The notes under the pieces are model-generated. The model was not told the DNA's origin and did not search any database. It saw nothing but the letters and a program-made list of their open reading frames with translations. Positions 4,822-47,701 of a stretch of 47,701 bases of DNA are shown piece by piece. The DNA is from an uncultured Bacilli bacterium (lineage in GTDB: Bacteria; Bacillota_I; Bacilli_A; RF39; UBA660). A program made the translations under genes and the position numbers. Numbering within the stretch: position 1 is the stretch's first letter; each line of letters starts with the position of its first letter. The DNA lies in contig CALVUN010000006.1 of assembly GCA_944363595.1 (NCBI GenBank), positions 1 through 47,701 of the forward strand, written 5' to 3'.

Positions 4822-6384
4822 TTAATATAGTTTGAATTTATAGTGGATTTCTATAGTTTTATCTTCACTTATAAGTATCTTATCAATTAGATTTACTAAT
4901 AAATTTCTACTTGGCTTTTCAAAAAATAAATATTCGTTTATCTTTTTTAATATTTCACCCTTTTCATTATTATCATTTACCAAATCAATATTTTTAAGTT
5001 CATCTTCTAATTCTTTTTTTCTACTTTTCAACTGTTCTATCTCATCTTTATATTTGCTAGTTAAACGTTTAAACATTGCCATATCAATATTACCATTTAA
5101 CCTATCTTCATATATTTTATCTATATATGAGTTATTAGTTCTAATTTTATTATCTAATATATTGATTTCCTTTTGTTTTTTTATTTTTATATTATTTTTC
5201 TTTCTTACCTCTTCTAACTTATAAAAAAATAAACTACTATCTACATACTCCTTACACATTTTTTTAATTTCTTCTAACACAAGGTTTTCCAATTTTTTAT
5301 AATTACAACTGTGTGGAGTACATAAACCATATTTAGAATGAGATATATAGTAAGTACAACAACAGTAATATCTTTTACCATCACTACTTTTATTTATCCC
5401 TATTGCGTGTCCACATTCTTTACATACCATAAAGCCAGAAAGTAATTGAATATTATTACCAGTAGGTTTATTTTTGTTTTTTTTTAACAATTCCCCTACT
5501 GTATCAAATATTTTTTTATCAATTATTGCCTCATGAGTATTTTCTGTAATTATCCACTCATCTTTAGATGTTCTAATTTCTTTTTTTGACTTATAATTTA
5601 ACTTTTTTCTTCTACCTTGAGTTAAATTTCCAATATAAGTTTCATTAGTAAGCATTTCTTCAATAGTTCTAGGGCACCATAAACCATAAGCTGTAGATTT
5701 CATACCTCTATTAAGATTTGCATAAACACTTGGAGTAGGAATATGCTCATCAGAGAATATATTAGCAATTTGTCTTGGACTTTTACCCTCAATTACTAAA
5801 TTAAACATTCGCTCAATAATAGGTCTAATTTCCTCATCAACAATAATTTTATATTTATCATTAGGATCTTTTTTATAGCCATATACTGCTTTCCAACCCA
5901 AAAACTGTCCCTGTTCTTTTTTTGATCTCACGACTTTTCTAATTTTTTTAGATGTATCTTTTAAATAGTAATCATTAAACATTAATTTAAATTGTAAAAA
6001 CTCTAAACCTGGTGTTTCATGTAATGTATCAATATCATCATTTATAGCAATATATCTTATACCTCGTTCAGGAAATATTCTCTCTATATATTCCCCCATT
6101 GAAATATAATCCCTACCCATACGAGATAAATCTTTGGTAATTATAGTATTAACTTTACCACTATCAATATCTGCCATTAGTCTTTTCCAAGAAGGTCTAT
6201 CAAAATTAGAACCAGTAAAACCATCATCGACATACTCATCAATATATTGTAATTTTTCTTTTGTTTTCTCTAAGAATAAATGTAATAAATCTCTTTGATT
6301 TGTAATACTCTCACTTTCCATATTATCGCCATCTTCACGAGATAACCTAATATAAAGAGCAACATTAAATGTCTTACCATTCAT
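4822..6384 (-). CDS. Large serine recombinase (site-specific integrase of element 1)
   Basis: This is a 520-residue DNA recombinase. The N-terminal resolvase domain has the nucleophile Ser15 in ALYIRLSRED and the active-site arginines in TKDLSRMGRD (88, 91). A recombinase domain follows (YGYKKDPNDKYKIIVDEE, then THEAIID near residue 283). A zinc ribbon begins CKECG (321-325) with a CCC cluster at 341-343, and a long coiled-coil region lies near 375-480. All motifs look intact, so the enzyme is probably active. It would cut and rejoin attP with attB in the NMT1-type gene; excision normally needs an extra directionality factor. ATG 6384 has GGAG upstream. It is unlike the other recombinase in this window beyond shared family motifs. 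Confidence 0.95.
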   Translation of the reverse strand: MNGKTFNVALYIRLSREDGDNMESESITNQRDLLHLFLEKTKEKLQYIDEYVDDGFTGSNFDRPSWKRLMADIDSGKVNTIITKDLSRMGRDYISMGEYIERIFPERGIRYIAINDDIDTLHETPGLEFLQFKLMFNDYYLKDTSKKIRKVVRSKKEQGQFLGWKAVYGYKKDPNDKYKIIVDEEIRPIIERMFNLVIEGKSPRQIANIFSDEHIPTPSVYANLNRGMKSTAYGLWCPRTIEEMLTNETYIGNLTQGRRKKLNYKSKKEIRTSKDEWIITENTHEAIIDKKIFDTVGELLKKNKNKPTGNNIQLLSGFMVCKECGHAIGINKSSDGKRYYCCCTYYISHSKYGLCTPHSCNYKKLENLVLEEIKKMCKEYVDSSLFFYKLEEVRKKNNIKIKKQKEINILDNKIRTNNSYIDKIYEDRLNGNIDMAMFKRLTSKYKDEIEQLKSRKKELEDELKNIDLVNDNNEKGEILKKINEYLFFEKPSRNLLVNLIDKILISEDKTIEIHYKFKLY

Positions 6385-17085: not shown

Positions 17086-18684
17086 ATGAATAATAATGAA
17101 AAAAAATTAAAAGTAGGTATTTATTTAAGATTATCTAATGAAGATAAAGATAAAAACAATAAAAAAGATGATAGTGAATCTATCAAAAACCAAAGAAATA
17201 TGCTTATTCAATATATAAATAAATACCCTAATTTTATTTTAATAGATGAATATTGTGATGAAGATTTATCAGGCGCAGGAACATATCGACCTGAATTTGA
17301 AAGGTTAATAAAAGATTGTGAAAAACATAAACTAGACATTGTTTTATGTAAAAGTCAATCTAGATTTTCAAGAGATATGGAAATAGTAGAAAAATATATA
17401 AATAATAAATTTAAAGAATGGAATATAAGATTTATAAGTTTATCTGACAATGCTGACACTGAAATATTAGGAAATAAAAAATCAAGACAAATAAATGGAC
17501 TTGTCAATGAATGGTATTTAGAAGACGTTTCAAATAATATAAGAAGTGCTTTTAATTCCAAAATGAAACAAGGAGAATTAATATCACCATTTGCCCCCTT
17601 TGGTTATGAAATATCCCCAAATAATAATAATAAATTAATAGTAGATCCCATTGCCAAAGAAATTGTTAAAAAAATATATAATTTATATTTAACAGGTTTA
17701 GGATATACATCCATTGCCAAATATTTAAATAAATATCAAATCCCTTGCCCTTCTCTTTATAAATACCAAAAGGGCATTAAATTAAATATAAATAGTAATA
17801 AACCACGCGAAAAAATAAAATGGAATACTAACGCAATTAAAACAATTTTAACAAATGAAGTATATATAGGTAATTTAATCCAAGGAAAAAGAACCACTGT
17901 TAGTTATAAAAACCATAAAATTAAAATTAAAGATAAAAAAGATTGGATAAAAATTAAAAACACCCATGAAGCAATTATTGATGAAGAAACATTTAATAAA
18001 GTACAATTTACAATAAAACAAAGAACTAAGCCTAATAAAAAAACAGGTATAGTTCATTTTTTCTCTGGAAAAGCATATTGTCTAGAATGCAATCATTATA
18101 TGCGAAAAAAGAATTCTTCTAAACATGAATATTTAGTATGTTCTAATAATCGTGATGGATATAACGATTGTTTAAATAAAACTTCCATTAGATATGATGT
18201 ATTAGCAAATCTAGTATTAGGGGCAATAAATAATAAAATTGAAAAATTTTATGACGAAGAAGAATTAGAAAATTTAGATTCAAAAAAACTTGATAACAGA
18301 TTCAAGAAAAAAATTAAATCTTTAGTGGCTCTTAGAACTGATATTGAAAATAAAATATCTAAAACTAAAAATTATTTAAAAAATATTTATGAAGATAAAG
18401 TAAATGGTATTATTACACTAAAACAATTTAAAGATTTAATTACCAATTATAATAAAGACGAAGATAATTATAAAGATCAAATTAAATTAATAAATAATGA
18501 AATATCCCATTATAGAATGAAAGAAGAATCTGGGAAAAAAAATAAAGAAATATTCAAAAAATACCAAAAATTAGAAGAATTAAATAGAGTTGTTGTTGAT
18601 GAATTTATTGATAAAATTTATATTGGTAAATTAAACGAAGAAACAAATACTAGAGATATTCAAATTAAATGGAATTTTGAATAA
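17086..18684 (+). CDS. Large serine recombinase (site-specific integrase of element 2)
   Basis: This is a 532-residue integrase. The resolvase domain has nucleophile Ser17 in GIYLRLSNED and arginines in CKSQSRFSRD. A recombinase domain follows (APFGYEISPNNNNKLIVD, NAIKTILTNEVYIGNLIQGKR, THEAIIDEETFNKVQ), then a zinc ribbon starting YCLECNHYMRKK and a coiled-coil region. All parts appear intact. ATG 17086 follows GTGAGG. It likely recognises the inverted-arm att with central GT that flanks 7614-19689. It differs from the other recombinase along most of its length, as expected for integrases with different target sites. Confidence 0.95.
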   Translation: MNNNEKKLKVGIYLRLSNEDKDKNNKKDDSESIKNQRNMLIQYINKYPNFILIDEYCDEDLSGAGTYRPEFERLIKDCEKHKLDIVLCKSQSRFSRDMEIVEKYINNKFKEWNIRFISLSDNADTEILGNKKSRQINGLVNEWYLEDVSNNIRSAFNSKMKQGELISPFAPFGYEISPNNNNKLIVDPIAKEIVKKIYNLYLTGLGYTSIAKYLNKYQIPCPSLYKYQKGIKLNINSNKPREKIKWNTNAIKTILTNEVYIGNLIQGKRTTVSYKNHKIKIKDKKDWIKIKNTHEAIIDEETFNKVQFTIKQRTKPNKKTGIVHFFSGKAYCLECNHYMRKKNSSKHEYLVCSNNRDGYNDCLNKTSIRYDVLANLVLGAINNKIEKFYDEEELENLDSKKLDNRFKKKIKSLVALRTDIENKISKTKNYLKNIYEDKVNGIITLKQFKDLITNYNKDEDNYKDQIKLINNEISHYRMKEESGKKNKEIFKKYQKLEELNRVVVDEFIDKIYIGKLNEETNTRDIQIKWNFE

Positions 18685-35999: not shown

Positions 36000-37085
36000 T
36001 TACATTTCTTTATTCTTTTTATAATACTTATTAAAGTAATATACAGAATATCCTAAAGCACCAGCTCCAATAGCCCATACTATATAAATAGGAATATCAG
36101 AAGTCGTAGGGTTCTCTTTAATCTCTTCTTCGGCAGGTGTTGACACTAATCTATAATAACAATTAGATTTACCATCAGCACCATTAATCGTAACACTAGT
36201 ATTAGCATTACTAACTAATCTATAACTACCAATAGAGGCAGGACAAGCAATACTATAAGTCTTACCATCTTCATAATTGCTACCAATAAGCTTAGAACCT
36301 TGAATAGTCTCACCAGTATCTTGATCGTAATAATATTGTGTTATAGAAAATAATGGAACCTCTTCATCAGGAACAGTATAAGTTAAATAATATAAAGCAG
36401 GAGCAAATGCCCAATCAGCAGTAACATCATCATTAGTAGTAGCAGTTAGTGGAGTTTGCCATGCATCAATATTTGGTGTACTACTATCAGCATATCTTTG
36501 AATAGTAACACTTATTAATTTAGCACTACGATCAATATCAACTGTTGTTGAATCATCCACTTCAGGAAGAACTGAAGCATTAACTAAACCACTCAAACTA
36601 GCATTTGAAACATCTAATTGATCAGCTATTTCAAAATATCTTCCATTAGCAGTCCAACCACCATGTAATTGATAATGATAATTAGGATCATTATCAGGTG
36701 TATACACTCCTCTACCTTCAGTAGAAGTTAATGCTTTATAAGCTCCCTGATACATAGACCAAAATTTTCTAATATCCCATTCAGTAGTAGAATGACCACT
36801 ATCATCACCACCATTGACAAGTTCAACCCATCCTTGACCAGTAATAGTAGCATTACCAGGAATATCATAAGAGAAATCATTAGTAGTATGTGGATCATCA
36901 ACTATATACTCTATAAGTTTCTCCTGATTTATATCTTCTGTTATTGTAAATGCATCACTAAAAAAATAAAAATTAGTATATGTCTCTGCTGCTTTTACAT
37001 TATCAATTTTAACCATAAATGGCACAACCATTGCCAAAGTAGATAATAAAAGAACACTTGCCTTCTTACCTATATTCTTCTTCAT
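36000..37085 (-). CDS. Secreted surface protein A of a tandem pair, sorting signal NPTTSD
   Basis: This protein of about 361 residues starts at ATG 37085 (MKKNIGKKASVLL) preceded by AAAGGAAGG. After the signal peptide (ending near VKAAETYTN), the body shares TNFYFFSD, EWDIRKFWSMYQ, VNASVLPE and PALYYLTYTV with the gene at 37202. A MucBP-like unit follows (YYYDQDTGETIQGSKLIGSNYEDGKTYSIACP). The C-terminus is NPTTSD, a hydrophobic helix and YYKKNKEM. It is likely anchored by sortase or held by its helix, and probably interacts with host or diet glycans (inference). Confidence 0.8.
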   Translation of the reverse strand: MKKNIGKKASVLLLSTLAMVVPFMVKIDNVKAAETYTNFYFFSDAFTITEDINQEKLIEYIVDDPHTTNDFSYDIPGNATITGQGWVELVNGGDDSGHSTTEWDIRKFWSMYQGAYKALTSTEGRGVYTPDNDPNYHYQLHGGWTANGRYFEIADQLDVSNASLSGLVNASVLPEVDDSTTVDIDRSAKLISVTIQRYADSSTPNIDAWQTPLTATTNDDVTADWAFAPALYYLTYTVPDEEVPLFSITQYYYDQDTGETIQGSKLIGSNYEDGKTYSIACPASIGSYRLVSNANTSVTINGADGKSNCYYRLVSTPAEEEIKENPTTSDIPIYIVWAIGAGALGYSVYYFNKYYKKNKEM

Positions 37086-37201
37086 TTTTTCCTTCCTTTC
37101 CAGTACTCTGTACCCTTCTACTATATTCATAATATCACAACAATAAAAAAAATGCAATACAATTTGCATTTCTTTTTTAAATAATTTTTCACTTTCTAAA
37201 A

Positions 37202-38272
37202 TTAACTTCTTTTAGGTTTCTTAACAAATTTAACTAAATAGTAAATTGCAAAGATAAACGCACCAACACCAACTATAACGACAATACTCATAGGTAAATC
37301 CCATGTTTGAGGATTACTTACATTAGTCGTAGGATTAGATGGCGTTGTAGGAGTATTATCAGTAGGCACAATAGTAGGTAATTTATAAATACAATCAACA
37401 TCAACATCGCTACCATCAATTACTCCAGAAGCATTAGAACTTGTCTTACTTAAAGTATAGTTTTTACCATTAACACTTAATGACGTAGGACAAACAACAT
37501 TATAAGAAGATCCATCTCTTAAATTAGTAAAAAGTCCCATTACAGAATCTTGAATCTTATTACCATCTTCATCCTTAAAGTGTTCATTAACTTGATAAGT
37601 ATTTTCATTCTCTTCACATACTTCATATTGAATATAATATAAAGCAGGCATTACATAAGAAGTATTACCATTATCAAATGATAAAGGTTCACTTCCAACA
37701 TCATCACCATCTTCCGTATAAGTTCTACTAACACTACCTATTAAACCATTAGGATTAGTATCAACAGTACCAAAACTTATATAAGCAGTAGTACTAGTAG
37801 GTAAAACAGAAGCATTAACTAATTGATAATTAGTAAAACCAGTAATAATTACATGATTATTACTTTCAGGTTGTCCCTCTAAATACCAAGCATCATGACC
37901 TACAAAATAAACATCACCATCATTATAATAACCATCACTATCAGCTTGTAATTCCTTAAAATGAGACCAGAAATTACTTAAAGACCATTCAGAAGTATTC
38001 ATAGAAGAACCACTTCTAGTCAAACTAACTTGATCTTGACTAATAATTCTAGCATCTTCTGGAATAATACTAGCAAATTCTCTTGAAGTATGATTACGAG
38101 TATTACCAACCATTACCTTTTCATAATTATCAACACTAGCAATATCACTGAAGAAATAATAATTAGTATATGTTTTACAACTATCAGAAGCTTCAACCTT
38201 ACTATCATTAAAGATAAATGGTAAACTTAACAATAGTGAAAATAAAACAAGTCCAACAATTTTCTTTTTCAT
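37202..38272 (-). CDS. Secreted surface protein B of a tandem pair, sorting signal NPQTWD
   Basis: This 356-residue paralogue of the preceding entry has signal peptide MKKKIVGLVLFSLLLSLPFIF, then KTYTNYYFFSD, EWSLSNFWSHFKEL, VNASVLPT and PALYYIQYEV. A MucBP-like unit follows (EHFKDEDGNKIQDSVMGLFTNLRDGSSYNVVCP). It then has a Thr/Pro/Asn linker and NPQTWDLPMSIVVIVGVGAF with a KKPKRS tail. It lies upstream of protein A on the same strand with a 116-bp gap. Confidence 0.8.
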   Translation of the reverse strand: MKKKIVGLVLFSLLLSLPFIFNDSKVEASDSCKTYTNYYFFSDIASVDNYEKVMVGNTRNHTSREFASIIPEDARIISQDQVSLTRSGSSMNTSEWSLSNFWSHFKELQADSDGYYNDGDVYFVGHDAWYLEGQPESNNHVIITGFTNYQLVNASVLPTSTTAYISFGTVDTNPNGLIGSVSRTYTEDGDDVGSEPLSFDNGNTSYVMPALYYIQYEVCEENENTYQVNEHFKDEDGNKIQDSVMGLFTNLRDGSSYNVVCPTSLSVNGKNYTLSKTSSNASGVIDGSDVDVDCIYKLPTIVPTDNTPTTPSNPTTNVSNPQTWDLPMSIVVIVGVGAFIFAIYYLVKFVKKPKRS

Positions 38273-46090: not shown

Positions 46091-46124
46091 AATATAGAAG
46101 ACCAACATCTTCTATATTTTTATT
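46091..46124. terminator. Bidirectional terminator
   Basis: An 11-bp stem AATATAGAAGA (46091-46101) / TCTTCTATATT (46108-46118) followed by T's; it serves two convergent genes. Confidence 0.8.
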
Positions 46125-46133
46125 TTATTCCTC

Positions 46134-47630
46134 TTAAATTCCAAGAGTGAATGGACTACTTGAACTGCCATCTCCTCCAGTTATCTTAACATCTGATTTT
46201 AGATATATGACCGGGCGAGAAGCGTAAGAATACGCAACGTGGTTGTAGTCGACATAGCCAGAGGTATACACAATAAAAACGCGATTCGAATAACCGGAGT
46301 AAGGCATAAGGGTCCATTGAGTTGAACCATTAAATAAATAATCATTGTTTTTACAATCACTATAACTTGAATCCTTCCAATTATATATTGCTGTTGCTAA
46401 ACAAGACGCTCTATTAGTAGTACTTCCTCCACTTGTGGCATATCCATAATCTGATGGATACATTAATCCTATTTTTCCTACCCAATATGTTGGTCTTCCA
46501 CTATATACTGTTGTTCCTCTTTCTCTTTCATAAAACATACTTGCTGTTACATCATTATAAGTTGATGAACCCCCTAAATTCCATACCGCATCCCCTATTA
46601 ATAACTGAGATTCAGAAGATAAAGTATTATAATAATCACCATTTAAGTAATTTTGTAATGAAGCAGTAGACCAGTTGTTAAAACCTTTACCATAACCAGC
46701 ATCGGGTGCCAAAAACATTACATAATAATCCTTACTTGATGCAGACATACCACTACTAGTACTTCCATCATCCCATAGATAACTACCTATTGACTCATCT
46801 CTTATTATCTTAAGTCTCTTTTCTGTTGGACCACCATTTGTTGTTGCTACATCAAATACCCCAATTATACGCCATAATTCATTATTAAATGATACATAAT
46901 TATTTGGATCAGCTCCCATATATCTTATATTACCATCTGGATCATCATTATTCATAGTATTAGGATTATCCACTAATAATGATTCTATATATCCACTAGC
47001 TGTAGGTACACTATTTTCCCCTGTATTACATACACAAAATAATTTCCATTCACCATTAACTTGTCTACTTTCACATTCATCAGTACATTCTACAGTAGAA
47101 GTACAACTATCATTACCAGCTTCTTCACTAGTTTGAAAACTAGTAATGGGTATCTCACCATCATTATAGATAATATCATCTACTCCTTGACTATCTGTAT
47201 AATATCCTGTTCTAACACCTATTTCTACGGTTATATCACTATCACTAGTATTCTTTATTACCATAGGTACTGTTTTACTAGTATTACTATCTAATGTCCC
47301 TTTAGCAAGCATGGTAAGATCATCTGATACTTGTGCTATTATTACTCCACTAGGTAAGTTACTAGGACTAATCATTTTATAATACATTCCATATGATATA
47401 GTACCACTCATATCATTCTCTACTACAGCATTAAATCTAAGTTTAGATCCTGCACTTACTTTAAGTTCTTGTGTACCATTAATTTTAAATTTATATGTCA
47501 TACTAGTATCTATATCTACCATATTAGTTTCTACACTAGATGTAAACATAGCATAAGTTCCATATATTGAAGCTCCTACTAAAGTTATTATTAGTAATAA
47601 TAATAAATAATATTTCTTTATAAATTTCAT
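46134..47630 (-). CDS. SipW/TasA-like secreted protein with DUF6273-like C-terminal domain
   Basis: This 498-residue protein starts at ATG 47630 after GGGAGGAAG. Signal-like N-terminus KKYYLLLLLIITLVGASIYGTYAMFTSSVETN resembles TasA/camelysin-type leaders. A Cys cluster (CTSTVECTDEC, FCVC) follows. From about residue 230 there is a domain with NNELWRIIGVF, WDDGSTSSGMSASS, NYLNGDYYNTLS, VGKIGLMYPSDYGYA and a tail RPVIYLKSDVKITGGDGSSSSPFTLGI, of the DUF6273 type found in gut Firmicutes surface proteins. A 108-bp stretch at 46209-46316 has aberrant composition (see separate entry). Confidence 0.82.
   Translation of the reverse strand: MKFIKKYYLLLLLIITLVGASIYGTYAMFTSSVETNMVDIDTSMTYKFKINGTQELKVSAGSKLRFNAVVENDMSGTISYGMYYKMISPSNLPSGVIIAQVSDDLTMLAKGTLDSNTSKTVPMVIKNTSDSDITVEIGVRTGYYTDSQGVDDIIYNDGEIPITSFQTSEEAGNDSCTSTVECTDECESRQVNGEWKLFCVCNTGENSVPTASGYIESLLVDNPNTMNNDDPDGNIRYMGADPNNYVSFNNELWRIIGVFDVATTNGGPTEKRLKIIRDESIGSYLWDDGSTSSGMSASSKDYYVMFLAPDAGYGKGFNNWSTASLQNYLNGDYYNTLSSESQLLIGDAVWNLGGSSTYNDVTASMFYERERGTTVYSGRPTYWVGKIGLMYPSDYGYATSGGSTTNRASCLATAIYNWKDSSYSDCKNNDYLFNGSTQWTLMPYSGYSNRVFIVYTSGYVDYNHVAYSYASRPVIYLKSDVKITGGDGSSSSPFTLGI
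46209..46316 (-). other. Putative hypervariable C-terminal cassette of the surface protein
   Basis: This region codes for WTLMPYSGYSNR... ending in SRPV, just before the conserved YLKSDVKI tail. By direct count its 36 codons hold 52 G/C of 108 bases (48%), 20 G/C third positions and no A-ending codon. The flanks are AT-rich and use many A-ending codons. Low A on the coding strand and a sharp border near the 3' end resemble a diversity-generating-retroelement variable region, but no reverse transcriptase or template repeat is in the window. Confidence 0.4.
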
Positions 47631-47701
47631 CACTAACTTCCTCCCTATTCTATAAATAGTAAAACATTACCTATATATATTTTCTTACAATATTAATATT
47701 A

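Follow-up and report, generated by a model that had tools for sequence, protein, structure and literature searches.

The window analysed here, a 47.7-kb stretch of DNA, is one contig (C6) of a genome assembly that comprises 83 contigs and is 91.6% complete. On its minus strand it carries a complete gene (46134..47633) for a protein of about 499 amino acids, described as a membrane-anchored surface protein on the basis of the open reading frame, Pfam, an AlphaFold2 model and fold searches. The housekeeping genes aspS, gatA, gatB and recA share the contig with this gene, the 3′ end of which faces a pseudouridine-synthase-like gene. Codons 440-475 (46209..46316, minus strand) form an island of 36 codons devoid of A-ending codons. 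Such codons account for 184 of the 500 codons of the gene, the second longest run lacking them spans 11 codons, and a run of 36 was reached in none of 20,000 shuffles of the gene. The GC content of the island is 0.481 compared with a median of 0.324 over the 108-nt windows of the gene, and it ties for the top rank among 108-nt windows across the whole 47.7 kb. An earlier note made from the letters of this DNA had described the stretch as a codon-usage island of 48% GC in an AT-rich gene, followed by a conserved RPVIYLKSD tail, and both descriptions were borne out. Its boundaries are off by no more than a few bases; the functional unit is slightly smaller and covers 46214-46308, so that the island consists of this unit plus a few flanking codons. 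The conserved C-terminal tail (RPVIYLKSDVKITGGDGSSSSPFTLGI, 46134..46213, minus strand) lies 3′ of the island and is near-identical in both target paralogues of the genome. Between the window gene and its paralogue on contig C23, mismatches amount to 5.6% from the end of the variable unit through the 3′ flank as against 24% within the unit.

At its N-terminus the protein has a hydrophobic helix, followed by a beta-sandwich (residues ~40-145); its C-terminal part (~212-499) is a DUF6273-like C-type-lectin domain. Pfam assigned DUF6273 with E=3e-6. In AlphaFold2 models built from 33-44 sequences, the C-terminal domain was confidently predicted with a pLDDT mostly above 95, and the variable part reached about 95 or more. 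The best solved match of the lectin domain was 9qa6 (Z 17.0, 2.9 Å over 202 residues), followed by the C-terminal domain of Legionella Lcl (Z 6.4, 4.3 Å, 115 aligned residues). Animal C-type lectins formed a long list of matches to the domain model that are individually modest (Z 4-6), and structurally similar viral models carry a DUF6273 annotation. Single Z values being modest, the assignment is based on the consistency of the list together with DUF6273: as modelled, the domain is a predicted C-type-lectin fold with the variable part in its C-terminal strands. The shared fold with 9qa6 extends over residues 209-499 of the window protein (46137-47009) and residues 32-304 of the solved structure, the N-terminal part of an IgA peptidase of Thomasclavelia ramosa.

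When the 3′ end of the gene was used to search the genome at the DNA level, the C23 paralogue (84%) and one further, short match at C8:1127-1224 were returned. The latter is non-coding, as no long reading frame covers it; its neighbours are a small ORF on one side and the cassette described below on the other. We refer to it as the template repeat (TR) and to the 95 nt of the gene that align to it (46214..46308, minus strand) as the variable region (VR). TR and VR are 81% identical, and their differences are adenine-specific. Twelve of 26 template adenines are changed in the VR but only 4 of the 69 other bases (p=1.6e-5). A single 12-nt block (CTCGTGTTTACG in the TR) holds all four of these non-A differences. 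Once this block is set aside, 12 of 25 adenines are changed as against 0 of 58 non-A positions (p=5e-8). Most of the changed adenines are at first codon positions (11 of the 15 there, against 1 of 11 at second positions), and the resulting codons include those for Tyr, Asp and His. A second VR, on the C23 paralogue, differs from the same TR at 10 of 28 adenines and at 7 of 70 other positions. The TR/VR match ends 3′ in a GC-rich stretch (GCTTCTCGCC, 46214..46223, minus strand) that is, by analogy, a candidate site for the initiation of homing. Right after CGCC the two sequences part in the alignment, the TR reading TTTAAG and the VR CGGTC.

Downstream of the TR, contig C8 carries an ORF of 135 amino acids with weak MutS_I similarity, an Avd-like gene and a reverse transcriptase (RT) gene, in this order. 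The RT (C8:2068-3111, 347 amino acids, PF00078) begins about 0.85 kb downstream of the TR and has an intact YVDD motif; its frame and that of the Avd-like gene are open. The Avd-like protein scored 40.4 bits against PF22296 (bAvd), for which the cut-off is 40, and matched the NCBIfam Avd model NF033474 with E=3e-8, below the strict cut-off. The top solved-structure match of the RT, above group II maturases, was 8ub7 ('Reverse transcriptase'), which we take to be the DGR RT of Bordetella phage. RTs of DGRs usually contain the motif [ILV]GxxxSQ; the C8 enzyme reads IGSVVNQ. The earlier note had stated that neither an RT nor a template lies in the window, and had suggested searching the genome for an RT and for a closely matching repeat whose differences lie mostly at A positions. 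Both are indeed absent from the 47.7 kb, and both are present in the same assembly, on C8.

The genome holds further elements of this kind. A second cassette, on C26, is self-contained with its target in cis (13/31 A versus 0/46 non-A positions changed); its RT motif, IGSMTNQ, shares the S to N exchange with the C8 enzyme. A third DGR-like RT (C51 3613-5373, L026; 586 amino acids; motif IGNMTSQ) carries a C-terminal MutS_I-like fusion and is preceded by an Avd-like ORF. For this RT, an A-tolerant aligner and screening for AAY and GC content found no TR matching the known targets. Proteins on C5 and C24 match parts of the target protein, and no VR/TR pair was found for them; a paralogue on C80 had no recognisable TR match.

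Taken together, the island is very probably the VR of a cellular DGR target that is served in trans, in an uncultured gut member of the Bacilli. According to DGR biology, the RNA of the TR would be reverse-transcribed with random bases incorporated opposite adenines. The mutagenised cDNA would then replace the VR at the 3′ end of the gene, starting from the GC-rich CGCC end, and would thereby randomise surface residues of the C-type-lectin domain on a membrane-anchored protein. Conversion of AAY codons into NNY can create neither stop codons nor A-ending codons and would account for the codon and GC signature of the island. The earlier proposal of adenine-directed retroelement diversification is thus supported by a TR with mismatches concentrated at adenines and by an RT/Avd cassette in the genome. 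The four non-A differences of the window VR, the seven of the C23 VR and the IGSVVNQ motif speak against it.

The alternative named in the earlier note, in which silent donor cassettes exchange the 3′ end of the gene by gene conversion, is disfavoured. Paralogues with near-identical tails do exist, on C23 and, as a truncated copy with another target tail, where C72 breaks off; conversion could spread such tails. However, the closest donor is a short non-coding repeat on C8 that lies beside an RT and an Avd gene and has flanks without homology to the gene, the differences concentrate at the adenines of this donor, and a search of the genome for a bank of partial gene copies found none. We therefore regard gene conversion as highly improbable.

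Comparison with relatives strengthens the assignment to a DGR. The only genome of the same genus examined (G001) has a matching layout of target, HTH ORF, small ORFs, TR, MutS_I-like ORF, Avd and RT. Its cis VR differs from the TR at 16 of 29 adenines and at none of the 62 other positions. A VR on C30, a different contig from that of the TR, is changed at 20/29 A versus 0/62 non-A positions (p=1.5e-13), and one on C2 at 14/29 versus 3/62. For three divergent VRs of this genome (C10, C15 and C54) a second TR was sought and not found. Across 81 relatives, with variation measured between paralogues and between species, mean entropy was 2.26 bits in the island (columns 440-475) compared with 1.16 bits upstream. 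The fraction of A at third codon positions was 0.11 in the island versus 0.38 upstream, and GC3 was 0.50 versus 0.20. These figures also bear on the idea that no dedicated mutator is involved and that the island is a recently acquired segment of foreign composition or the product of ordinary positive selection. The GC content of the island, well above that of the gene, would suit such an origin. The same signature nevertheless recurs at the same place in the 81 relatives with conserved flanks, and the A-only TR differences of three pairs (0/62, 0/62 and 0/46 non-A positions) are beyond drift or selection alone. The pairs of G001 and C26 thus refute this explanation, the probability of which is negligible.

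The genome collection contains over 560 stretches related to the target, the relatives coming from uncultured Bacilli and including some that are named as poultry gut genomes. bAvd was detected in 21 of 79 related genomes, every one of them within the family of the window genome; none was detected in the 31 genomes that belong to other families of the class. Near most of the retrieved Avd genes there are TR-like sequences with many in-frame AAY codons. The RNA 3′ of the TR shows conservation, with an invariant UAUACGUA motif (L153:972-1140, L157, L162, L033, L032 and L154). In a small alignment of six relatives, 22 of 36 consensus pairs were changed on both sides in a compensatory manner. A scan of two loci near TRs yielded no credible Rfam match. 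A structured trailing RNA 3′ of the TR has been described for DGRs (PMC8867640), and the conserved segment appears consistent with such an RNA.

In the genome of the same genus, the 3′ end of the cis target faces the HTH gene, which is followed by the TR. Contig C8 starts just beyond its HTH gene, and any cis target would be off the contig. Because the 3′ end of the window gene faces the pseudouridine-synthase-like gene and C8 begins past the HTH gene, the window target is almost certainly remote from the C8 cassette and would be diversified in trans, as judged from gene neighbourhoods at the ends of contigs that are unlinked in a genome that is not closed.

The C8 template itself bears the mutational signature. 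In a codon-by-codon alignment, codons 11 and 13 of the C8 TR read CTC and TTT, while AAY occupies both places in all seven other TRs compared; both adenines of each codon are changed and the pyrimidine is kept. A pattern search allowing up to three mismatches found the rewritten block nowhere else in the assembly than on C8 itself, and there is no evidence that it is a chimera of the TR with an assembled VR. It is conceivable, though less likely than not, that mutagenised cDNA homed back into its own TR and rewrote it. Alternatively, either chimeric assembly or drift may have produced the two codons. If template homing occurs, it would freeze particular residues and reshape what the retroelement can later diversify.

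A related sub-case of the DGR reading is that the system is a relic: the VR was written formerly and the C8 template has since decayed, or the VR is served by another TR that was not assembled. The lost adenines at the two codons and the clustering of the non-A mismatches there would agree with decay, and the incompleteness and fragmentation of the assembly with a missing TR. Yet the RT and Avd frames are open, YVDD is kept, 11 AAN codons are left in the TR, and the VR has no non-A mismatch outside the block, as recent writing would give. We consider a relic rather unlikely.

The mechanism of DGRs is already known; what is new is the link between the window target and its machine. VRs have been placed in DUF6273 domains of gut prophages, the fold of which was identified as C-lec (PMC11792537, PMC10743442). 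The DGR targets of Faecalibacterium prophages share with the window protein a C-terminal VR in DUF6273, the C-type-lectin fold and adenine-directed TR/VR pairs (PMC11792537), and the tentaclins of gut phages share a DUF6273-like C-lec fold and such pairs (PMC10743442). Unlike both, the window target has a cellular host, judging from the housekeeping genes on its contig, an N-terminal membrane helix and a remote TR and RT, and a tblastn search returned no phage record for it. Remote targets have been described in cyanobacteria, where one DGR serves VRs elsewhere in the genome near the 3′ ends of genes (PMC7517822), and, reportedly, in Treponema denticola, where one DGR likewise has VRs near the 3′ ends of distant genes (PMC4891356). 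The window target differs from these in its domain and its phylum. By their own account, Roux et al. (PMC8144416) could not detect remote targets in their metagenome survey. An orphan codon island has thus been tied to mutator machinery on another contig, in a class of targets to which a large survey calls its own method blind, and A-free codon runs at the 3′ ends of genes may serve as a sequence-only clue for finding remote targets. Besides this remoteness, the host group and the altered template are of interest. Surface proteins that resemble lectins and share this hypervariable tip occur widely in a family of uncultured gut Bacilli, and the apparently rewritten template makes the question of whether DGR templates are ever altered by the DGR mechanism itself testable.

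The DGR of Bordetella phage BPP-1 (Mtd, Avd, bRT; PMC3240598) resembles the present system in its TR, Avd, RT and 3′-end VR in a C-lec protein, as well as in the GC-rich VR end and possibly in a hairpin past the VR. In contrast to BPP-1, the target here is in trans, an additional MutS_I-like ORF is present and the RT motif is IGSVVNQ. The hairpin of the window (AATATAGAAGA-TGTTGG-TCTTCTATATT, 46091..46118) may be a terminator or a candidate target-site cruciform, such as has been shown directly past the VR in phage DGRs. It has 11 bp, is AT-rich and lies about 95-99 nt past the VR, whereas that of BPP-1 is GC-rich and lies within 4-34 bp. Similar hairpins follow some targets, not all, and occur elsewhere in the genome. 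The TAGAAG...CTTCTA form recurs in the window, on C23, C61 and C72, on C2, C3 and C10 of G001, and at L037, L039 and L044, and at several of these sites a second inverted repeat (CCTAGGGAAGTA...TACTTCTCTAGG) comes after it. The role of the hairpin as a universal target tag is unproven, as most targets are not followed by it and the copy on C61 has no target.

Elsewhere in the window, two large serine-recombinase-like proteins of about 520 and 532 amino acids (4822-6384 and 17086-18684) suggest integrated mobile elements in its left part. Two neighbouring and apparently related secreted proteins (36000-38272; 389 and 356 amino acids) with C-terminal membrane anchors are probable surface proteins.
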